A DNA stretch of 12,083 nt from an uncultured Ignavibacteria bacterium (GTDB taxonomy: Bacteria > Bacteroidota > Ignavibacteria > Ignavibacteriales > Melioribacteraceae): assembly GCA_937930275.1 (NCBI GenBank), contig CALGLM010000148.1, positions 1 through 12,083 of the forward strand. The letters run 5' to 3'. The position numbers and the translations under genes are program-made. The notes under the pieces are model-generated. The model was not told the DNA's origin. It saw only the letters and a program-made list of their open reading frames with translations, and did not search any database. This document shows, one piece after another, positions 810 to 12,083 of the stretch (within the stretch, counting starts at the first letter, position 1; every line of letters begins with the position of its first letter).

Positions 810-1955
810 ATGAATTACAATAATTTTATAGATAACATATTGCTGGGGAATGTTCCTTATAATGAAATAAATATACTTTATAGCAACTCACGTAAAACTG
901 CAGCTAATATAATATCCGATTCTATTATTGAAAACAACTTACAACATACAATAAGATATACCGAGAGCAGTAAAAACGAAATTACCGAAACAAGTGATAA
1001 CTTATTAACAATAAAACAGTTTAAGGAAGGCGAGCAGCAAATTGTTAGGAATAAAATCCCCACTGACGAAATATTATTTTTCTTCTATAATAAGGACTAT
1101 CTTCTTGTAAAAAAACATTTTGGATTATTTTTTGACTTAAACCTAAAAAGAAAATGCGGGTTACCGTATGTTGCACATTTATATCGAGTTTCCGCAACCC
1201 TTTTTTCTCTTTTCGCTAATAGCGATAATAGACATTTTTATTCAACATTAGCTGCCATTCACGATTCATTTGAAGATATTCCCTTAAAAATTGCCAAAAA
1301 CAATCGTAATTTTAACCTTTCTGCACTATCAAAATTTATTGACGAGAATATACCTTCGGATTACATTAATGATATAATAACTATTACAAATATGTACGAC
1401 TTACTACTCGGTTATACAGAAAGTTTTTTATTAAGTAAAGATATGGCTTTTTCTCCTAATAATATAGTTCCCCTTTTGGAAGAATTTTACACAAAAACCG
1501 ATTTCTTTAAACAAGAAATAATTAATTTAATTGCAGTTCTTGCAAGTATTGAATTTGATTCTGATTTTTTAAGAAATTTACGCTGGTTTACTTATATTAA
1601 TTATTATCTTCCTTCAATTGTTAACTCCTGTTTGCAGAATAACAATTTTTCGTTAATTGAATTAAAAACAATTGATTTATTAGACAACGCTTGGGGAATG
1701 AAATCGTTAGATATTACAGGAAAAATAAGACAAATTTTAAAGCGTCAAGAATTTATTAACTTAATTAAAAGCTCCGGAGTAGATTTTTGGGCAGTTAATC
1801 ATCATGTTAACGAACTTCAAAATATCACCTTACAAGATGCACGTGAATTAATAATCGAGTATCTAAGCAGTCCAAGATTAAGATTAGATTATCTTGAAAC
1901 TGCGTTAAAAATCATAAAATCATTACTCCCAGTATTAACCATAAACGAAACTTAA
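801..1955 (+). CDS. Stand-alone HD-domain protein, RelA/SpoT-type alarmone hydrolase-like
   Basis: The protein has 384 residues from GTG at 801, or 381 from ATG at 810. ATG 810 is better placed behind GGGTGG (798-803). The middle carries the RelA/SpoT hydrolase signature: RKCGLPYVAH (R117-H126), matching the family's R-K-S-G-x-P-Y-x-x-H; AAIHDSFED with H154-D155 and E158-D159, matching L-H-D-x-x-E-D; an IITITN segment where the family has LVxGVTK; and LKTIDLLDNAW with D292, matching the K-x-A-D-R-L-x-N motif. In Rel enzymes the two His, the HD Asp and this last Asp bind Mn2+, and the ED pair is catalytic; all are present. The D155-D292 spacing (137) is about twice that of Rel (about 66), so there is an insertion. 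No synthetase, TGS or ACT domain follows. Inference: hydrolysis of (p)ppGpp or a related nucleotide. The N-terminal 100 residues match nothing I recognise. The gene converges on the glycosyltransferase gene, overlapping it by 4 nt. HD fold is fairly sure; substrate is not. Confidence 0.72.
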   Translation: MELMNYNNFIDNILLGNVPYNEINILYSNSRKTAANIISDSIIENNLQHTIRYTESSKNEITETSDNLLTIKQFKEGEQQIVRNKIPTDEILFFFYNKDYLLVKKHFGLFFDLNLKRKCGLPYVAHLYRVSATLFSLFANSDNRHFYSTLAAIHDSFEDIPLKIAKNNRNFNLSALSKFIDENIPSDYINDIITITNMYDLLLGYTESFLLSKDMAFSPNNIVPLLEEFYTKTDFFKQEIINLIAVLASIEFDSDFLRNLRWFTYINYYLPSIVNSCLQNNNFSLIELKTIDLLDNAWGMKSLDITGKIRQILKRQEFINLIKSSGVDFWAVNHHVNELQNITLQDARELIIEYLSSPRLRLDYLETALKIIKSLLPVLTINET

Positions 1956-4006
1956 AGTCCGTATTTAGATTTTATCTCTCTTAAGCGTGTTCTTATATCT
2001 TTAGCTATTTCATCGTTAGGGTTACTTGTAATTGCAATCTCGATATATTTAAGAGCTTTTTCAATATCGCCTAAATAAGAGTAAGTAAGCGAAAGTTTGA
2101 AATTAGTGACATACAAATCTGGATAGAATTTTATTAATTCTTCTAAAATTTCCGCCGCTTTTTCATACTGTTTATTCTCAATTAATCTTTCGGCAAAGTC
2201 ATTTACATACTCCGCATAACCGCTAACAAAAAAATCTTTATATTCAGCAGAATGTTTAACCATTAATTCTTTGTGTATTTCATTCCATTTTTTAGTATAT
2301 ATTTCTGCGTTTCGGTTTAATATATCTCTCGCTGTTTCTTCTTTATCCAAATACTTAATCTTTTTGTAAGACCCGATACTTCCGCCCCATATATGGTCGT
2401 ATGATACGCTCGGAATAATATAGCTTTTTAAGCCTGCTAATTTAATCTGTAACCCTATATCCCATTCTTCGTAATAACAGGGAGTAAACTTATTTTCAAA
2501 CTTTATTCCGTGCTTATCAAATAGTTGCATATTTACGCCAAACAAAAAGCCGCTAACGGCATCCACCGTAGAAGTTTCGGGAAATGAACCCTTATCAAAA
2601 TACATAAAATCGGCTTTATCTTTATAACTAAAAAATGATCCTTGAGGACCAACCATTGCAGCATCCTTTCTCCATTCTATTAAGGAAGAAATTTTTTCAA
2701 CAACGTCATTTTCGATATGGATATCGGAGTTTAATATTAACGTAATGGGTGTTTCACTCATATTTAGTCCAATATTCCACGCACGGGCAACCCCGACATT
2801 TTTTTTCATTACTGCATAATTATTTATTCTTGGGTGATCTTTTATCTGATTAGCAACCGTTTCATCATTAAAAACAATTAGTAATTTCCCTTCAATTTTT
2901 TCTAAATCAGTCAATAATGTTTTAATATTGTACTTACTTGCGGGGGCATAATCTAAAACAGGAATAACAAAACTCCTTCTAAGATTATTAATTTCTTTTA
3001 ATGAAACTGTTACATTTTGTAAAGACCTTTCTCGCCATTCGCTACCTTTGGGAGTATTTTGTTTTTTACCCAGCACTACATCAACCAACTCATTTAATCT
3101 GTGTTCGTATGTATGAGCATTCAATACAACTTGCTTTCCCCTTTTAGCAATAAGTTCGCGTAGTTCGGCATTTTCAAGATAATACTTAATCGTATAATTT
3201 ATATTATCGTCTTCATAAAGAGCCAATTCTTCGGAGTGATTAAAAAACTCTTCCTGCCCGTTAGAAAAAGTAGGATCTGTTAATAAAAACGAACCAATCG
3301 ATAAAGTTTCAAACACTCTCATGTTCAAATCGTTATTTACTGCGTTATTAAACACAATTTTAGAAGAATCGAGCACCTTAGCCATATCATCCCAAAAACA
3401 TCTTTCGTAGTAAACATCGTGCTCTTCTTTCATTTTATTAAGCAAGCTTACTCTTCTTGGGTTAGCCATAGTACCGCCTACAAAACCTACGTCATAAATC
3501 TTTTTGCTACCTATTGATTTATGAATTTCGGGGTCACAACCCAATGGCAACCAAAACACATTTTTATGACCTTTTTCCGTAAAACTTGGTATATATTCTT
3601 TTTGAGCCAAAAAAATAAAATCAAAATTTTTTGCCCATTCTAATTGGTAATCTAAATTATTTAAATGTGAATCTATAAAGTACGCTGATGTAGGAATACC
3701 CATTTTATCAATATTCTTAGGAAAATAACCAAATACCGATTCCACCCACAAATACATATCCGGTTTAGCATTATTTGGTGTTCTATCATATAAATCTTTC
3801 ATATCCGGGCTGTCACCGGTCGGTATGTTATGATCAACAATAGGAAGTTTCATGTTTTCCAAATTCCAGTCTTTAACAAGAGACTGCGAAATTTTTGGAC
3901 CTATTGTAACAACATTAAAATTCTTTTTTAGTGCCCGCTCAAAATATGCTCCGGTTGTTACAGGATAGGAAGCATAAGCCAGCCAAATATTAATATTCTT
4001 AATCAT
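1952..4006 (-). CDS. Two-headed glycosyltransferase: CgeB-like GT-B, then GT2 (GT-A), then TPR
   Basis: The protein has 684 residues. An in-frame TGA lies two codons before the ATG at 4006, so the start is fixed; GGTG just upstream is the only, weak, ribosome site. Residues 1-310 look like a CgeB/DUF3880-type GT-B enzyme: PDMYLWVESVFGYFP (82-96), YDVGFVGG (171-178) and a C-terminal motif LNMRVFETLSIGSFLLTD (227-244) with R230 and E233, where the family binds the nucleotide sugar. Residues 345-575 look like a GT-A family 2 enzyme: KKNVGVARAWNIGL (401-414), a metal-binding ILNSDIHIEND (424-434, D428), GFLFGVN (486-492) and YYEEWDIGLQIKLAG (511-525) as the acidic catalytic segment. Residues 603-672 form two TPR-like repeats. 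There is no signal peptide or membrane helix. The two heads probably add consecutive sugars to one glycan. Acceptor and sugar cannot be read; the nearby flagellins make flagellin or a surface polysaccharide the natural candidates. Confidence 0.85.
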   Translation of the reverse strand: MIKNINIWLAYASYPVTTGAYFERALKKNFNVVTIGPKISQSLVKDWNLENMKLPIVDHNIPTGDSPDMKDLYDRTPNNAKPDMYLWVESVFGYFPKNIDKMGIPTSAYFIDSHLNNLDYQLEWAKNFDFIFLAQKEYIPSFTEKGHKNVFWLPLGCDPEIHKSIGSKKIYDVGFVGGTMANPRRVSLLNKMKEEHDVYYERCFWDDMAKVLDSSKIVFNNAVNNDLNMRVFETLSIGSFLLTDPTFSNGQEEFFNHSEELALYEDDNINYTIKYYLENAELRELIAKRGKQVVLNAHTYEHRLNELVDVVLGKKQNTPKGSEWRERSLQNVTVSLKEINNLRRSFVIPVLDYAPASKYNIKTLLTDLEKIEGKLLIVFNDETVANQIKDHPRINNYAVMKKNVGVARAWNIGLNMSETPITLILNSDIHIENDVVEKISSLIEWRKDAAMVGPQGSFFSYKDKADFMYFDKGSFPETSTVDAVSGFLFGVNMQLFDKHGIKFENKFTPCYYEEWDIGLQIKLAGLKSYIIPSVSYDHIWGGSIGSYKKIKYLDKEETARDILNRNAEIYTKKWNEIHKELMVKHSAEYKDFFVSGYAEYVNDFAERLIENKQYEKAAEILEELIKFYPDLYVTNFKLSLTYSYLGDIEKALKYIEIAITSNPNDEIAKDIRTRLREIKSKYGL

Positions 4007-4129: not shown

Positions 4130-7100
4130 ATGAAAAATTTGCCGATTCCGGAACATACGGAAGGAGAATTAGACTCTGCCGAAAAGAAATATTTGGAGCT
4201 AAAAAACCTTTTACCTGCAAATAATGAAGTAAACTTTTGGTTGGGGTATTTATATTTTCAAAAAAATGATTTTATTTCCGCACAAAAAACTATAGAGGAA
4301 TTTTTAAAGGTAAATAATAATATAAAAGCTTGGAATCTACTCGGATTAATATATCAAAACATGAAACAGTTTGAAAAAGCAAAAGAAGCTTATCAAACAG
4401 CAATTAGTTTAAATCCCAAATACTTGGATTCTCAATTTAATCTGGGGGTATTATTAACAGAAAATAATTTTTTTGATGAAGCAATAGAAATATTTACATT
4501 AATTAACGAAGAAAATTCCGAAGATTGCGAACCCTATTTTTTACTCGGATATTGCTATCAGCAAAAGAAAAATTACAATTTGGCAATACACTTTTATTCA
4601 ACTTCCCAAAGCTTAAATTGCAATAAAGCAGAGTTATACGCTAATTGTGCTAACATATTTTGCGAAATTAGTCAATTTGATAAAGCAATAGAATATATAA
4701 ATGACGGATTAAACTTATATCCCGAAAATGAAGATTTATTAATCGCTTTGGCATTTTATTACGAAAAAACAAGCGACTTTCAAAATCAAGAGTCCGTTTT
4801 ATTAAAATTAACTGAATCGGGTACAGCCAATTATATTCCGTTTTTTAGATTGGCTAATCTTTATAAAACTATTTGGCAGTTGGATAAAGCAGAATTATAT
4901 TATAAAAAGGCTTTGTCTTTATCTCCCGAGAACGAGGATGTTTTACTTAATTACGGCGTACTGTGTCATGCTTTAGGAAATTTTGAAAATGCAGTTGAAT
5001 TATTCAAAGTTGTGCTAAAAAAAATGCCTAATAATCTTTCGGCTTTGAATAACTTGGCTAATTCTCTGTTAGACCTTGAAAAATTTGATGAAGCAAAAAA
5101 TGTTTATCAAATAATATTTAATAATTTTCCAAATTCGTCATTAGAACACTTTAACTTTGGTCTCGCATTATTACTAAACGGCAACTATGAAGAAGGTTTT
5201 AAGCATTATGAATGGAGACTTTTACTTAATGAATACAAAAGAGAAATAGCAGGTAAACTAAGATGGAACGGTGAAAACTTATACAATAAGACTTTATTTG
5301 TTTACGGTGAACAGGGTATAGGCGATATAATTATGTTCTCAAGATTTTTACCGCAAATTAAAGAAAAATATAATTGTAAAATTATTTTTGAATGCCGCAA
5401 AGAAATAATTAATCTTATCATTCTAAACTTCCCCGAAATATCTGTTATTGAAAGGGGAAGTAATATAAACATTAACAGCTTTGATTATTATTGTTCTTTA
5501 TTAAGCTTACCGTTATTATTAAAAATAAAAAATACAAACGATATAAATCCAAATCCTTACCTTAAAGCCGATATAAATAAGGAAGCAAAATGGCAAAATT
5601 ATTTTTCTACATTTAATAAACTTAAAGTCGGAATTGTTTGGAAAGGTAATCCGTTTCCTTTAGAACATAGGAAACGACATACTGAATTGAAATATTTTTT
5701 TGAGATTGCTAAAATTAATGAAATTCAGCTTTTTAGTCTTCAATTCGGTGAAAATTGCAAAGCCGAGCTTGATATGCATAACATTATTGAATTGGCATAT
5801 AATTTTGACGAAACAGCTGCCATTATTAAAAATCTTGACTTAATAATAACCGTTGATACCTCAATTGCCCATTTAGCAGGTGCGCTCGGTACAAAAACTT
5901 GGGTACTTTTAACAAAAATTCCGGATTGGCGTTGGCTATTAAAAGATAACTCTTCCTACTGGTACTACTCAATAATGCTTTTCAGACAAAAAGAATTTAA
6001 TAATTGGAATAGTGTATTTGATGATGTAAAAAGCAGCTTAATAAAACTAATTACAACTTCAAGTGAAAATATTGAGCTTAACTATCAAATACTAAAAGAA
6101 AAAGCTTTTAACTTGCTTGAAGAAAATAAACTTAATGAAAGCATAGAAATTTATAAATTGCTTACTATAAATTTTCCTAACGATATTGAAAGTTTTATTT
6201 GGTTAGGGGTAGCATATTATAATTTTGGTAATTACAAAAGTGCAATTTCTAATTTCAAAAAAGTTTTAGAAACTCTTGGGTCGTTACCTGAGCAAATTTA
6301 TAATTATTATTGCACAAGTTTTTTAAATCTCGGTCAATATGATGAGGGCATAAAAGAAACCAAAAATGCAATTGAAATTTATGAGAACTCTGCCGAATTA
6401 AATAATACTTACGGTTTGTTGTTAGCAGCAAATAACAAAAAAGATGAAGCATTAAATTATTTTTATAAAACGTTAAAGCTAAATAATTACTTTCTTCCTG
6501 CAATGGTAAATATTGCAAATACTTACCAAGATTTAAAACAATTTAATAAGGCTATTGATTATTCGAAAGAAGCATTAAAAAATCATCCGGATATATTACA
6601 ATTTAACCAAATTATTGGCAACTGTTATTTAAATATTAATAAACCGGATGAATCGATTAAATACTTCAAGTTAATTGCTGAAAAAAGCGAAGACCCAAAG
6701 CTGTGTAATAACTATGGAATAGCACTTCAAAGGATTCATAATTATCATTTAGCTAATCATTATTTTTTAAAAGCATTAAATTTAGAGAATGATAATTACG
6801 GATACTTAGGAAATTTAGGAAACAACTATGCTTTAACTCATAATTTTGAAAAAGCATTAGAATGTTTTAACAAAGGATTAGAAATAGCTCCCGGGAATAA
6901 AGATTTGATTAGTATGGTTGGGTTAATAAAACTATTAACAGAGGATTTTAATAAAGGATGGCAGTTATTTGAATATAGTTTGACTAAAAATGTTCCTTTT
7001 GCAAATATTCCGGATTGTAAAGAATATAACGGTGAAAACCTGACCGGAAAAACTATTTTAATTTACTCCGAACACGGGTTAGGGGATACTTTACAATTTA

Positions 7101-9379
7101 TACGTTACATTCCTTTACTAAAAGAAAAAGGTTGTAATATTATTTTTGAATTTCAAAAAGAATTAGCTCCCCTATTATTTTACACAAATGGCTATTATAA
7201 GCCATTAATTAAGAATAATTTCGATTTAAAGGACGTAAAATCGGATTATTATATTTCATTATTAAAGTTGCCGAGAATCTTTTGCACAAATATAGCCAAC
7301 ATTCCAAAATTAGCCCCCATAATCAAATTAAATGAAGCTTTAGTTTTTAAATATAAAAGTATGCTTAATGTAAAAAAGAAAAAAATAGGGCTTGTTTGGG
7401 CGGGCAACCCTATTCATCCGAACGACCATAATAGAAGCATCCCTTTTGCATACTTAAAAGTATTATTTAATAGTCCGGATACACATTTTTATTTACTTCA
7501 AAAAGAAAATAAACTTCTTTTGGAAGAGTACAATGTTTACAACAATATAACCGATTTATCGGCAGAATTAACAACTTTAGAAAATACTGCTGCAATTATA
7601 TTCAGTTTAGACATAATTGTAACTGTTGATACAATGGTTGCACACTTAGCCGGTACATTAAATAAACCAACTTACTTATTGTTGCCTTTTTTACCTGATT
7701 GGCGCTGGTTATTAAACAGGGAAGACTCAGTTTGGTACAATTCCATTAAGATTTTCAGACAAATAAGTCCCGGCGATTGGAGTTTTCCTGTTGAAAAGAT
7801 TTATAAAGAATTAAATGACAATAAAGAAACTCGACTATTGGAGCAACAAATAAAACTTTTAGTCAATTCCGGAAAATATGGTGAAGCGATTGAGCTATTA
7901 AAAGATGACTTAACAAAGCCCGGCAATAAAGTTAATTTATTAAGTGAGATTGCGCTTGTTTTTATAAACTTAAAAGAATTTGATACGGCAATATCTATTT
8001 TAGAAACGGCCATAAAGTTAGATGATAAAAATTTTGAAATAATATATAACTTAGGATATTGCTATCACCTATTAAACAATTTTGAAAAGGCAAGTTTTTA
8101 TTACAAAGAGACATTAAATTTAAATCCGATTAATATTAACGCATTAAATAATCTCGGATTAATTGAAAGAGATTTTGGCAATATTAATTGTGCTGAAAAA
8201 CTATTTACAAAAGCAATATCCATATGTTTTAATAAGCCCTTTTTACATAATAACTTAGGAACTATAAACGAATCATGCGGGAATAATGCCTTAGCTATAG
8301 AAAACTTTAATACGGCTCTTTCCATTGATCCTAACAACGTAGATGCTTTAATAAATTTATCAAATGTATATCATTATACTAATAAACCCGAAACCTCACT
8401 CGAAATAATTGATAAAGCAGTAAAACTATCTCCCAATAATCCTACCGTAAGATTTAACAGGGCTTTATTATTACTGCGAATAGGAAAATTAAAAGAAGGC
8501 TTTGAAGAATATGAGTATAGGGCAAAAAGAATTGATTATCCCAACTACTCATTTAGAAAACCTCGCTTAACAAGTTTGGAAGAAATTAAAGGAAAGACAA
8601 TTCTTGTTTATGATGAGCAAGGTTACGGCGATACAATTCAATTTTGTAGATATATAAAAAACTTAAATAGTTTAGGATGTGAAGTAAAATTATTATGTCA
8701 TCCTCCCCTTGTTGATTTAATGAAAGGATGTTTAGGCATTTCTCAAGTTATCGGCAGAACGAATTTAGGTGATTCCGATATAGAATATGATTATTATATA
8801 CCCTTATTAAGTTTAGGCATGTTTTTTGAATCCCGTTTAGAAGAAATAAAAGTTAATGTTCCTTACATATTGGTTGACCATAACTTACAAGAGAAATGGG
8901 CTAATGATTTAATAAAAACCGGAAGGTTAAGAGTTGGTATTGTTTGGAAAGGAAAGCAAACACCGGGGAATACTCACAGAACGTGCAAATTAGAAAACTT
9001 TGTGCCTCTTTTTAATAATAAAGCTGATTTTTATAGTTTACAATTCGATTTACAAGACGAATATCAGATTGAGATTTTAAAGAAGTACAATGTTCAAAAT
9101 TTAGGAAATAAAATAAAAACGTTTAACGATACTGCAGCAATAATATCCCTCCTTGATTTGGTAATTAGTATTGATACTTCAGTAGCCCATTTATCATGTG
9201 CATTAGGAAAACAAACATGGATTCTACTATCCTCAAAGTGTGACTGGCGTTGGCACGATTTTAGAAGTGATAGTCCATGGTATCCTACTGCAACATTGTT
9301 TAGACAAATAGAATTTAATAAATGGAATACTGTATTTGCGGAAGCAGACAAAAAATTGAAAGAATTAATCAATAACTAA
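4130..9379 (+). CDS. Triple-module TPR-glycosyltransferase, probable flagellin O-glycosyltransferase
   Basis: This 1749-residue protein holds three consecutive modules of TPR array plus GT-B (GT9/GT41-like) domain. TPR arrays lie at about 14-367, 653-950 and 1232-1468; GT domains at about 376-640, 963-1228 and 1480-1747. Each GT domain repeats the same landmarks: E-x-G-x-G-D (394-399, 981-986, 1496-1501); G-x-V-W-x-G (501-506, 1087-1092, 1603-1608); D-T-x-x-A-H-L (576-582, 1167-1173, 1682-1688); D-W-R-W (599-602, 1190-1193, 1705-1708). Before each GT the last TPR ends in a Gly-Trp/Phe helix with YEWR, FEYS or YEYR. Bacterial proteins with a single such module include FlmG of Caulobacter, which binds flagellin through its TPRs and glycosylates it in the cytoplasm. 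Flagellin 1 starts 27 nt downstream, so cotranscription is likely. An in-frame TAG 15 nt upstream fixes the start. No signal peptide or membrane helix is seen. The architecture is certain; the flagellin substrate is inferred from context. All three GT domains look intact, though the third has Lys for Asn after W-K-G. Confidence 0.9.
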   Translation: MKNLPIPEHTEGELDSAEKKYLELKNLLPANNEVNFWLGYLYFQKNDFISAQKTIEEFLKVNNNIKAWNLLGLIYQNMKQFEKAKEAYQTAISLNPKYLDSQFNLGVLLTENNFFDEAIEIFTLINEENSEDCEPYFLLGYCYQQKKNYNLAIHFYSTSQSLNCNKAELYANCANIFCEISQFDKAIEYINDGLNLYPENEDLLIALAFYYEKTSDFQNQESVLLKLTESGTANYIPFFRLANLYKTIWQLDKAELYYKKALSLSPENEDVLLNYGVLCHALGNFENAVELFKVVLKKMPNNLSALNNLANSLLDLEKFDEAKNVYQIIFNNFPNSSLEHFNFGLALLLNGNYEEGFKHYEWRLLLNEYKREIAGKLRWNGENLYNKTLFVYGEQGIGDIIMFSRFLPQIKEKYNCKIIFECRKEIINLIILNFPEISVIERGSNININSFDYYCSLLSLPLLLKIKNTNDINPNPYLKADINKEAKWQNYFSTFNKLKVGIVWKGNPFPLEHRKRHTELKYFFEIAKINEIQLFSLQFGENCKAELDMHNIIELAYNFDETAAIIKNLDLIITVDTSIAHLAGALGTKTWVLLTKIPDWRWLLKDNSSYWYYSIMLFRQKEFNNWNSVFDDVKSSLIKLITTSSENIELNYQILKEKAFNLLEENKLNESIEIYKLLTINFPNDIESFIWLGVAYYNFGNYKSAISNFKKVLETLGSLPEQIYNYYCTSFLNLGQYDEGIKETKNAIEIYENSAELNNTYGLLLAANNKKDEALNYFYKTLKLNNYFLPAMVNIANTYQDLKQFNKAIDYSKEALKNHPDILQFNQIIGNCYLNINKPDESIKYFKLIAEKSEDPKLCNNYGIALQRIHNYHLANHYFLKALNLENDNYGYLGNLGNNYALTHNFEKALECFNKGLEIAPGNKDLISMVGLIKLLTEDFNKGWQLFEYSLTKNVPFANIPDCKEYNGENLTGKTILIYSEHGLGDTLQFIRYIPLLKEKGCNIIFEFQKELAPLLFYTNGYYKPLIKNNFDLKDVKSDYYISLLKLPRIFCTNIANIPKLAPIIKLNEALVFKYKSMLNVKKKKIGLVWAGNPIHPNDHNRSIPFAYLKVLFNSPDTHFYLLQKENKLLLEEYNVYNNITDLSAELTTLENTAAIIFSLDIIVTVDTMVAHLAGTLNKPTYLLLPFLPDWRWLLNREDSVWYNSIKIFRQISPGDWSFPVEKIYKELNDNKETRLLEQQIKLLVNSGKYGEAIELLKDDLTKPGNKVNLLSEIALVFINLKEFDTAISILETAIKLDDKNFEIIYNLGYCYHLLNNFEKASFYYKETLNLNPININALNNLGLIERDFGNINCAEKLFTKAISICFNKPFLHNNLGTINESCGNNALAIENFNTALSIDPNNVDALINLSNVYHYTNKPETSLEIIDKAVKLSPNNPTVRFNRALLLLRIGKLKEGFEEYEYRAKRIDYPNYSFRKPRLTSLEEIKGKTILVYDEQGYGDTIQFCRYIKNLNSLGCEVKLLCHPPLVDLMKGCLGISQVIGRTNLGDSDIEYDYYIPLLSLGMFFESRLEEIKVNVPYILVDHNLQEKWANDLIKTGRLRVGIVWKGKQTPGNTHRTCKLENFVPLFNNKADFYSLQFDLQDEYQIEILKKYNVQNLGNKIKTFNDTAAIISLLDLVISIDTSVAHLSCALGKQTWILLSSKCDWRWHDFRSDSPWYPTATLFRQIEFNKWNTVFAEADKKLKELINN

Positions 9380-9406: not shown

Positions 9407-10279
9407 ATGCCATTCAGAATTAATACCAACATTGATGCGCTGAAAGCATATTACAATTTGTCGAAGATCAATTCCGACTTAACCGAATCACAATTACGTA
9501 TAGCAAGCGGTAAAAAATTAAACCGCGTTGCAGACGATACATCCGGTTTTAACGTTGGTACATCTCTACAAGGCAAGTTGAAAATCATGGAAGGTGCCTT
9601 AGGCAATATTTCTGCAGCAAAAGACTTACTTTCAACAGCGGAAAGCAACTTATTAGGTATAAACGACCTTTTAACCAAAATTGAAGGAAAACTTTCTGAC
9701 GCTACAAACCCGACAGCAGATCCGACTGCAATTAAAGACGATATCCTTTCTTTAGCAAAAGAAATCGAATCAAAATTAAAGAGCTCGAAATTTAATACCA
9801 CCTCGTTATTGTATTCAACAGCGGGTAAAGGATTTACCTTTAGCGTTGGTGAACTTGGCGATACTTTGCAATTAGATTTTGCATCAACTCTCGCTTCAAC
9901 CGGTAATAACGGTTATGCAACAAACTTTTCTGCAGGTTTAACAAGTTTTGTTAATGTTTCTACCAGTTATTTAACATCTTTATCAACAACAAATACCGGA
10001 ACACTTTCCAGCTTAACAACTGCTTTAAGTTCGCTTAAAAGTGCTGTTGTAACTGCTTTAGGTAAAATCGGTAACTCGGTTCAAAGATTAGATGTTAAAG
10101 AAGAAACACTTAACACATCTATTTCAAATGCTAAATCAAGCATTAGCCGTATATTTGATACAGATATGGCTTGGGAACAACTAAACGCAATGCGCGGAAC
10201 AATTTTACAACAGTCTGCCACTTCTATGTTGGCACAGTTAAACATGAGCCCGCAACAAGTTATGCAGTTATTCCAATAA
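9407..10279 (+). CDS. fliC: Flagellin 1 (short, Ser/Thr-rich centre)
   Basis: The product is a 290-residue filament subunit. The N-terminal D0/D1 part shows NTNIDALKAYYNLSK and RIASGKKLNRVADDTSGFNVG (31-51), equivalent to the classical LSSGxRINxAxDDxAG. The C-terminal part shows DMAWEQLNAMRGTILQQSATSMLAQLN (253-279), equivalent to the usual coiled C-terminus, and ends SPQQVMQLFQ. It is much shorter than enterobacterial FliC, so the D2/D3 outer domains are missing or tiny. Residues 185-212 hold 17 Ser/Thr in 28 positions, a plausible O-glycan acceptor region. The ribosome site AGGAGA lies 6 nt before the ATG. The gene follows the TPR-glycosyltransferase by 27 nt and lacks the FliA-type promoter block of its paralogues, so it is probably read from the upstream gene's promoter or from one inside that gene. 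Of the first 100 residues, 83 match flagellin 2. Like other flagellins it should be exported by the flagellar type III system, without a cleaved signal. Confidence 0.96.
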   Translation: MPFRINTNIDALKAYYNLSKINSDLTESQLRIASGKKLNRVADDTSGFNVGTSLQGKLKIMEGALGNISAAKDLLSTAESNLLGINDLLTKIEGKLSDATNPTADPTAIKDDILSLAKEIESKLKSSKFNTTSLLYSTAGKGFTFSVGELGDTLQLDFASTLASTGNNGYATNFSAGLTSFVNVSTSYLTSLSTTNTGTLSSLTTALSSLKSAVVTALGKIGNSVQRLDVKEETLNTSISNAKSSISRIFDTDMAWEQLNAMRGTILQQSATSMLAQLNMSPQQVMQLFQ

Positions 10280-10391: not shown

Positions 10392-10706
10392 ATGAACCCA
10401 AATAACAAAGCCAACGCATATCTAATGAAAGAGATAGCAGAAGCCTCACCACAAAAACTACTTCTAAAGACCTATGATTTTGCAATCGTGCATTATCAAA
10501 GAGGAGATTACTATAAAGCTAACAAAGCCGTAACCGAGTTAATCAATTCATTAAATTTTACTGATGAAAACACTAAGGATATTTCGCTTGGTTTGTTAAG
10601 GTTATACCAATTTACACAAGAAATGGGTAGAAAAGGTAATTTTGCCGTTTCGGTAAAAATTTTACAAGAATTACGTGATACTTGGCAAATTGTTTTTAAT
10701 CGATGA
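10392..10706 (+). CDS. fliS: FliS-like flagellin export chaperone
   Basis: The protein has 104 residues, slightly shorter than typical FliS (about 120-135). It has the family's N-terminal pattern NAYLMKEIAEASPQKLLLKTYDFAI, corresponding to N-x-Y-x-x-x-x-V-x-x-A-S-P-x-x-L-x-x-x-L-Y-D-G-A-I. Amphipathic helices follow, with a KANKAVTELINSLNF segment, LLRLYQFTQEMGRKGNF (usual L-Y-x-Y-x-x-x-x-L-x-x-A-N) and a final LQELRDTW (usual L-x-x-L-R-E-x-W). FliS binds the C-terminal helix of flagellin in the cytoplasm and keeps it unpolymerised until export. An in-frame TAA seven codons upstream and the absence of other start codons fix the ATG; there is only AGAG as a ribosome site, suggesting modest translation. 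The gene lies between flagellins 1 and 2, which fits its role. No fliD or fliW is visible in this window. Shortness and sequence divergence leave some doubt, but context and motifs agree well. Confidence 0.88.
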   Translation: MNPNNKANAYLMKEIAEASPQKLLLKTYDFAIVHYQRGDYYKANKAVTELINSLNFTDENTKDISLGLLRLYQFTQEMGRKGNFAVSVKILQELRDTWQIVFNR

Positions 10707-10712
10707 AAAAAC

Positions 10713-10739
10713 TAAACTTTTAAATTTTTTTTTCGATAG
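10713..10739 (+). promoter_or_regulatory. FliA (sigma-28) type promoter for flagellin 2
   Basis: TAAA at 10713-10716 and TTCGATAG at 10732-10739 are separated by exactly 15 nt. The classical FliA consensus is TAAA-N15-GCCGATAA, so the -35, the spacer and the CGATA core agree. The spacer contains a long T-run. Transcription should start near 10746, giving a leader of about 57 nt. The same element at the same place before flagellin 3 supports the call. Confidence 0.75.
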
Positions 10740-10802: not shown

Positions 10803-11672
10803 ATGGGATTTAAGGTTAACACAAACATCGATGCGCTAAGTGCCTATTACAATTTAGCCAAGGTTAACAACGATTTAACCAAATCACAACTCAGAATAGC
10901 CAGCGGTTCAAAACTCCAACATGTTTCAGATGATACAAGCGGTTTTAACGTTGGTAACTCGTTAAAAGGTAAAGTAAAAATCATGGAAGGAGCTCAAGGT
11001 AACATTTCTGCTGCTAAAGACTTATTATCTACTGCAGAAAGTAACTTACTTGGCGTTAACGACCTTTTAACAAAAATAGAAGGTAAACTTTCCGATGCTA
11101 CAAACCCAACCGCAGACCCAACCGCAATTGGTGACGACATCAAAGCTCTTGCTACAGAAATTGAAGCAAAATTAAAATCAACCAAATTTAACAACACAAG
11201 TCTTCTTTATTCATCAGCAGGTGCCGGATTCGTATTCCAAGTTGGTGAAGCAACAGATACCTTAAAGTTAGATTTTGCTACTACGATTGCATCAGGTAGT
11301 AATAATGGTTTTGCTACAAGCTTCTCGGCTTCGTTAAACAGCTTTGTTAACGTTTCTACAAGTTATTTAACATCAACTTCAGGCGGTGACGGCGGATTAA
11401 AAGGCTTAACTTCAGCTTTAACTTCGTTAAAGAGCGCTGTTACGGGTGCTTTAGGTAAAATCGGTAACTTTACACAAAGATTGGATATTAAGGAAGAAAC
11501 CCTTAATACCGGTATTTCTAACGCCAAATCGAGCATAAGCAGAATTTATGACACAGATATGGCTTGGGAACAATTAAATGCTATGAGAGGAACTATATTA
11601 CAGCAGTCTGCTACTTCAATGTTAGCTCAATTAAACATGGCTCCTCAGCAAGTTTTACAATTATTCGGTTAA
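10803..11672 (+). CDS. fliC: Flagellin 2 (short)
   Basis: The product is a 289-residue flagellin with the same plan as flagellin 1: N-terminal MGFKVNTNIDAL, RIASGSKLQHVSDDTSGFNVG (31-51), and C-terminal DMAWEQLNAMRG through APQQVLQLFG. It differs most in the middle: the Ser/Thr-rich stretch of flagellin 1 is here broken by a glycine-rich STSGGDGGLKG (191-201), leaving 12 Ser/Thr among residues 185-211. This could mean fewer glycosylation sites or a different filament surface. It has its own FliA-type promoter 63 nt upstream of the ATG, a strong ribosome site (GGAGG) and its own intrinsic terminator, so it forms a self-contained unit. Together with flagellin 3 it forms a recent tandem duplication; flagellin 1 is the older paralogue. 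It may be the major filament protein, judging from the expression signals. Confidence 0.97.
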   Translation: MGFKVNTNIDALSAYYNLAKVNNDLTKSQLRIASGSKLQHVSDDTSGFNVGNSLKGKVKIMEGAQGNISAAKDLLSTAESNLLGVNDLLTKIEGKLSDATNPTADPTAIGDDIKALATEIEAKLKSTKFNNTSLLYSSAGAGFVFQVGEATDTLKLDFATTIASGSNNGFATSFSASLNSFVNVSTSYLTSTSGGDGGLKGLTSALTSLKSAVTGALGKIGNFTQRLDIKEETLNTGISNAKSSISRIYDTDMAWEQLNAMRGTILQQSATSMLAQLNMAPQQVLQLFG

Positions 11673-11752: not shown

Positions 11753-11779
11753 TAAACTTTCGAAATTTTTTTTCGATAA
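11753..11779 (+). promoter_or_regulatory. FliA (sigma-28) type promoter for flagellin 3
   Basis: TAAA at 11753-11756, a 15-nt spacer and TTCGATAA at 11772-11779 match the classical TAAA-N15-GCCGATAA at 10 of the 12 fixed positions. The start of transcription should be near 11786, leaving a leader of about 54 nt. It closely resembles the element at 10713-10739, including the T-run in the spacer. Confidence 0.8.
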
Positions 11780-11839: not shown

Positions 11840-12083
11840 ATGGGATTTAAAGTAAATACCAACATCGATGCGCTAAATGCTTATTACAATTTAGCGAAGG
11901 TAAACAATGATTTAACCAAATCACAGCTAAGAATAGCCAGTGGTCAAAAATTGCAACACGTATCTGATGATACCAGCGGTTTTAACGTAGGCAACTCGTT
12001 AAAAGGAAAAGTAAAAATTATGGAAGGAGCTCAAGGTAACATTTCTGCTGCTAAAGATTTATTATCTACTGCAGAAAGCAACT
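11840..12083 (+). CDS. fliC: Flagellin 3, N-terminal part (cut by window edge)
   Basis: ATG at 11840 opens a frame that runs off the right edge after 81 codons. The visible residues are identical to flagellin 2 except at residues 13 (Asn for Ser) and 36 (Gln for Ser), and contain the same RIASGxKLQHVSDDTSGFNVG signature. The gene has its own FliA-type promoter and strong ribosome site. The near identity at protein level with many silent third-base changes shows a duplication kept under selection, or gene conversion followed by drift. Whether its central region is Ser/Thr-rich like flagellin 1 or glycine-rich like flagellin 2 cannot be seen. A further flagellin copy may lie beyond the edge. 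Confidence 0.96.
   Translation, partial: MGFKVNTNIDALNAYYNLAKVNNDLTKSQLRIASGQKLQHVSDDTSGFNVGNSLKGKVKIMEGAQGNISAAKDLLSTAESN

Follow-up and report, generated by a model that had tools for sequence, protein, structure and literature searches.

A protein with three tetratricopeptide repeat–glycosyltransferase modules encoded beside flagellin genes in an uncultured Ignavibacteria bacterium

Introduction

The closest described system is FlmG of Caulobacter crescentus, a cytoplasmic protein of 596 residues with one tetratricopeptide repeat (TPR) region and one glycosyltransferase (GT) domain. Flagellins are reported to bind to its TPR half and to receive the sugar from its GT half; neither half is dispensable, and several flagellins are substrates (PMC7591256). 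FlmG, with its single GT domain or 'head', is also the only TPR-GT for flagellin that we found in the literature; the search covered open-licence papers, so this is a weak absence. A search of that literature for flagellin glycosylation in the Ignavibacteria lineage gave one paper, which by its title concerns another organism. Eukaryotic OGT and SPINDLY, which combine TPRs with a domain of family GT41, likewise have one head per chain. GT9 enzymes classically build the LPS core; the heptosyltransferases of this family (E. coli heptosyltransferase II, structure 1psw, which acts on the LPS core) and the Veillonella protein 3tov are single domains without TPRs.

Here we describe a protein of 1749 residues, encoded at positions 4130-9379 (+) of a 12,083-nucleotide stretch of DNA from an uncultured member of the Melioribacteraceae (contig CALGLM010000148.1, assembly GCA_937930275.1); the whole of this stretch is referred to as the window. 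In layout the protein resembles FlmG, with TPRs at the N-terminus and a GT-B domain behind them, but where FlmG has one of each it has three. It differs from OGT and SPINDLY in that its GT domains match GT9 and not PF13844, and from the GT9 heptosyltransferases in possessing TPRs. Other TPR-GT9 proteins with three to six heads share with it the presence of several modules per chain, although most have at least four heads and are longer.

Architecture of the three-headed protein

In the open reading frame, a TPR array and a complete GT domain alternate three times over. On the forward strand, TPR array 1 (residues 1-351, positions 4130..5182) precedes GT domain 1 (residues 352-640, 5183..6049), array 2 (residues 651-937, 6080..6940) precedes GT domain 2 (residues 938-1229, 6941..7816) and array 3 (residues 1235-1452, 7832..8485) precedes GT domain 3 (residues 1453-1745, 8486..9364). 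The arrays contain about 10, 9 and 7 TPRs, counted by eye as helix pairs in AlphaFold models (over residues 36-365 for array 1). Scored singly, heads 1, 2 and 3 reach 24.9, 22.8 and 19.6 bits with PF01075 (curated cut-off 22), and the whole protein 58.2. Each of the motifs E-x-G-x-G-D, V-W-x-G, D-T-x-x-A-H-L and D-W-R-W occurs in exactly three copies in the 1749-residue protein, and with a GT-domain profile three domains are recognised in it and in each of eight full-length relatives, as against two in the incomplete record P0007. The earlier note's description of three complete TPR-GT modules in one frame is thus borne out by motif sets, profile and models alike, and the FlmG-type layout of an N-terminal TPR region and then a GT-B domain occurs three times in a single, presumably cytosolic chain. 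The most hydrophobic 19-residue segment averages 1.82 and lies within GT domain 2.

Two AlphaFold models have mean pLDDT values of 88.0 and 89.4, with pTM values of 0.74 and 0.50; their confidence therefore holds within modules, and the relative placing of the modules is unreadable from them. Structure comparison of the modelled head 3 shows the two-domain GT-B fold of GT9/heptosyltransferase, matching 3tov and 1psw; GT9 structures are absent among the fold matches listed for heads 1 and 2, and a sequence search found no PDB relatives of the GT domains. The best Foldseek matches of the whole model are SPINDLY and OGT. Membership of GT41 was considered and rejected, since PF13844 is absent among matches up to E = 1 for all three GT domains.

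Conservation and history of the heads

Eight independent relatives of 1748-1758 residues, 48-69% identical, retain all three heads, and the incomplete ninth (P0007) retains two. A chance arrangement or a misassembly was rejected on this ground, the same three-headed protein being present in eight other records. The named relatives are mostly Melioribacteraceae, other Ignavibacteria and Chlorobi. In an alignment of nine rows (the window protein, P0003-P0006 and P0008-P0011), mean pairwise identity is 0.60, 0.62 and 0.67 for GT domains 1-3, and 0.51, 0.43 and 0.51 for TPR arrays 1-3. Sequence conservation in the protein is highest in its GT domains, and all three modules are under purifying conservation. 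Taking as the criterion a residue present in at least eight of nine rows per head, 45 GT columns carry one residue across all heads. A further 24 are conserved within each head and different between heads, five of them directly past VWxG, which argues for specialised specificities, that is, different donors or acceptors. Head 2 deviates beside two motifs: Q is replaced by H in ExGxGD, and S by M behind DT. The motif residues that are presumably catalytic in GT9 enzymes do not vary in any head across the nine rows.

In a FastTree phylogeny of 189 domains, the domains of the first, second and third modules (M1, M2 and M3) form separate clades (support 99, 100 and 99), and low support (37) is given to the fork at which they meet other modules from Ignavibacteria. 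A quick IQ-TREE analysis of 72 rows recovers the three clades (97, 99 and 95) and gives 85 for the wider fork with other Ignavibacteria modules, which includes one- and two-headed proteins. Heads 2 and 3 are retained in the same order in a second three-headed group (P0099, P0102, P0111 and P0121; identity about 35%), which argues that the triplication is ancient. In the quick IQ-TREE, three of its four second heads join M2 (99) and all four third heads join M3 (98); its first heads lie near M1, weakly resolved (91, at an open fork), where the second head of P0121, a long branch, is also placed. The simplest history, as far as trees of the domains can tell, would be that one three-headed ancestor predates the split of both groups. 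The proposal that the triplication is old and its copies diverged therefore stands: M1-M3 are separate in both trees, and the heads parted before the two groups split.

Multi-headed relatives

The earlier note implied that a multi-headed form is rare, and this does not hold. Among the 119 homologues listed (P0003-P0121; window protein excluded, length limited to 0.55-1.75 times that of the query), one has two heads, 16 have three, 78 four, 21 five and three six. With 118 of the 119 carrying three to six full GT domains, the idea that three heads are exceptional was rejected, the set having been selected by length and so saying nothing on frequency among TPR-GT proteins generally. In a set of 120 shorter proteins, GT domains number none in 43, one in 74 and two in three. 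Multi-headed TPR-GT9 proteins are thus frequent among the homologues retrieved. Record names of multi-headed proteins include Geobacteraceae, Desulfuromonadaceae, cyanobacteria and Xanthobacteraceae. Entries P0012-P0120, TPR-GT9 proteins mostly with at least four full GT domains and some with added Pfam GT41, GT2 or GT4 matches, are a large uncharacterised set.

A whole-protein search of genome contigs gave no match, and in an alignment-based search of them the single match was L001, where a TPR protein is encoded but no GT domain was seen. On a viral contig (L012, 9833-11329), a 498-residue open reading frame contains a single TPR-GT module with the ExGxGD and DWRW motifs, and a Synechococcus phage S-SRM01 protein (BFVD A0A879R292) matches the model with TM 0.78 over the phage protein's own length. 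Phages may use single TPR-GT modules on their own proteins; a flagellin search of the viral contigs gave no match.

The flagellin link

Downstream of the three-headed gene, all on the forward strand, lie flagellin 1 (290 residues, 9407..10279), a FliS-like chaperone gene (104 residues, 10392..10706; PF02561 32.4 bits, cut-off 26.7), flagellin 2 (289 residues, 10803..11672; 80% identical to flagellin 1) and flagellin 3 (11840..12083; 81 residues visible, the window end cutting the gene). Residues 161-200 of flagellins 1 and 2 contain 17 and 15 Ser/Thr out of 40. The GT stop codon is 27 nt from flagellin 1, whose ATG has AGGAG seven bases upstream. The sigma-28-like box TAAACTTT-N11-TTCGATA occurs exactly, in a search of the whole window, only upstream of flagellins 2 (10713..10738, +) and 3 (11753..11778, +), the pattern having been derived from those two sites and so fitting there by construction. 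With three mismatches it has three more matches, all within the GT gene and at chance level. A classical sigma-28 pattern gives no more matches than in shuffles, and promoter and terminator scans of the window are near shuffle level. The 27-nt gap, together with boxes before flagellins 2 and 3 but not before flagellin 1, fits an operon, and we infer that the three-headed gene and flagellin 1 probably share one transcript.

Upstream, a 684-residue glycosyltransferase-like protein (1952-4006, -) is encoded divergently, 123 nt from the three-headed gene. It matches Glyco_trans_1_2 (83.1 bits) and DUF3880 (26.6 bits, cut-off 25.2), with a GT2-like stretch slightly under its cut-off (23.0 against 23.3) and TPRs at its C-terminus; it is a second multi-domain glycosyltransferase, possibly a partner in the three-headed protein's pathway. 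The remaining window genes are a 384-residue open reading frame (801-1955, +), with no Pfam match above cut-off, a weak match to phrog_990 (phage metal-dependent phosphohydrolase, E 0.006) and an HD-like pattern by eye, and the truncated end of a PAS-domain protein (2-682, -).

In relatives, exact equality of base counts between the longest contigs recorded for three-headed proteins and those recorded for flagellin-2 homologues was used as a proxy for linkage, the flagellins compared being those close to the window's (120 of 756 matches listed). Of the 13 three-headed relatives, at least six have a contig equal in length to one that carries a close flagellin homologue: P0003 (48044 bases), P0006 (221470), P0009 (2407775; a weak match, the contig being as large as a whole genome), P0010 (37727), P0111 (30697) and P0121 (59184). 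On the 30697-base contig, both P0111 and flagellin P0311 are named Melioribacteraceae; one flagellin record, P0258, is named Thermotogota. Among the flagellin matches listed, there was no contig match for P0004, P0005, P0007, P0008, P0011, P0099 and P0102, nor for any of 105 other multi-headed homologues or of the 120 shorter proteins (0/225). Ten three-headed relatives lie on contigs of at most 60 kb, and four of these match, as compared with 0.07-0.32 expected from random placement in an assumed 3.5-Mb genome with 1 to 5 flagellin loci; kinship among the genomes makes such probabilities over-optimistic. The contigs of P0006 and P0009 each contain four flagellin clusters, so that either genome has four or more flagellins, each about 290 residues long. 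The link to flagellin in the three-headed lineage is thus indirectly supported and recurs in relatives.

Plasmid relatives present a different picture. A relative was found in 132 plasmid records, of which 25 are listed, 24 of them matching about one module's span. Six neighbourhoods were read (two being one locus in two strains, and the gene table incomplete), and annotated flagellar genes were near the relative in none. Ten records hold both a TPR-GT and a flagellin, as the overlap of the best 60 of 80 flagellin and best 60 of 107 TPR-GT records; in none are the best places within 100 kb, the distances being 144 kb to 1.2 Mb. No annotated TPR-GT is near plasmid flagellins in four neighbourhoods. 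The earlier note had regarded homologues lying mostly away from flagellar genes as telling against a flagellin link; that is how these distant plasmid relatives lie, whereas the 27-nt spacing and the contig matches uphold the link, indirectly, for the three-headed lineage.

At least two plasmid relatives adjoin giant secreted-protein-like genes. On Arcobacter plasmid CP146529.1 (L018), the TPR-GT lies near ABC, HlyD and TolC genes, an FkbM methyltransferase, SapC and a 25.7-kb open reading frame (L018 5739-31406), which possibly encodes a glycosylated giant surface protein. On plasmid p1 of Azospirillum sp. TSH100 (L021 1-14481), four TPR genes, one of them annotated as a glycosyltransferase, lie near a 19.9-kb Ig-like-domain gene; these separate genes are perhaps a split counterpart of the multi-headed proteins. 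The remaining neighbourhoods read contain glycan or metabolic genes. The wider family may therefore follow various secreted substrates, with flagellin as the partner in the three-headed lineage.

Proposed function and alternatives

The protein probably works in the cytosol as an O-glycosyltransferase of proteins, guided by its TPRs and with all three GT-B heads active, and modifies the co-encoded flagellins before export by an FlmG-like logic; its catalytic activity, protein acceptor and flagellin substrate are inferred from the comparisons above. Each TPR array would grip unfolded flagellin and offer Ser/Thr residues to the next head in the chain, so that the co-encoded flagellins would be glycosylated in the cytosol ahead of export. 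With a common catalytic core and distinct conserved loops, the heads most likely differ in the sugars or acceptors that they use. A module could function by itself, since no head lacks a TPR array of its own and some relatives consist of one module (the 74 one-headed members of the shorter set). It is quite possible that a short glycan is built stepwise at one site, and equally conceivable that each head has its own site or sugar on one and the same flagellin. One head per flagellin is improbable, and was rejected as the main reading in view of the 80% identity between flagellins 1 and 2.

It is unlikely, though worth weighing, that the main substrate is something other than flagellin, such as a polysaccharide of the cell surface or some other protein that is secreted or surface-exposed, with the flagellin adjacency reflecting a clustering of surface genes. 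The plasmid relatives beside a type I secretion set with a 25.7-kb open reading frame or beside a 19.9-kb Ig-like-domain gene, others in glycan or metabolic neighbourhoods, and the LPS core as established product of GT9 enzymes are all in keeping with this, but the close spacing to flagellin 1 and a contig match limited to the three-headed lineage speak for flagellin. The heads might also be redundant, of a single specificity, and retained for fast modification of many sites, as the 45 identical columns of the common core and the Ser/Thr-rich centre of flagellins 1 and 2 would allow. This we consider decidedly unlikely, given the 24 columns fixed differently per head and the parting of the heads before the two three-headed groups split. 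Least probable of all is that one or more heads are non-catalytic, serving as structural or binding modules; head 3 does fall under the Pfam GT9 cut-off and head 2 is changed beside two motifs, yet what we presume to be the GT9 catalytic residues are unchanged in every head throughout the nine-row alignment, and evolution has been slower in the GT domains than in the TPR arrays.

Implications

A bolder form of the preferred reading, glycosylation of the co-encoded flagellins by three active heads, is speculative, and we hold it with considerable doubt. The protein might be a three-station assembly line, in which the TPR arrays pass unfolded flagellin from head to head and a trisaccharide is built directly on Ser/Thr without a lipid carrier or separate enzymes; across the wider family, the number of heads (2 to 6 seen) might then encode glycan length. 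If this is right, one chain would do decoration that needs several enzymes elsewhere, and the sequence would reveal the order of its modules. Removing single heads could then test how long the glycan is and in which order it is built, in a large family that we have not found described. Flagellins of the Ignavibacteria lineage would also, by this account, be glycosylated.
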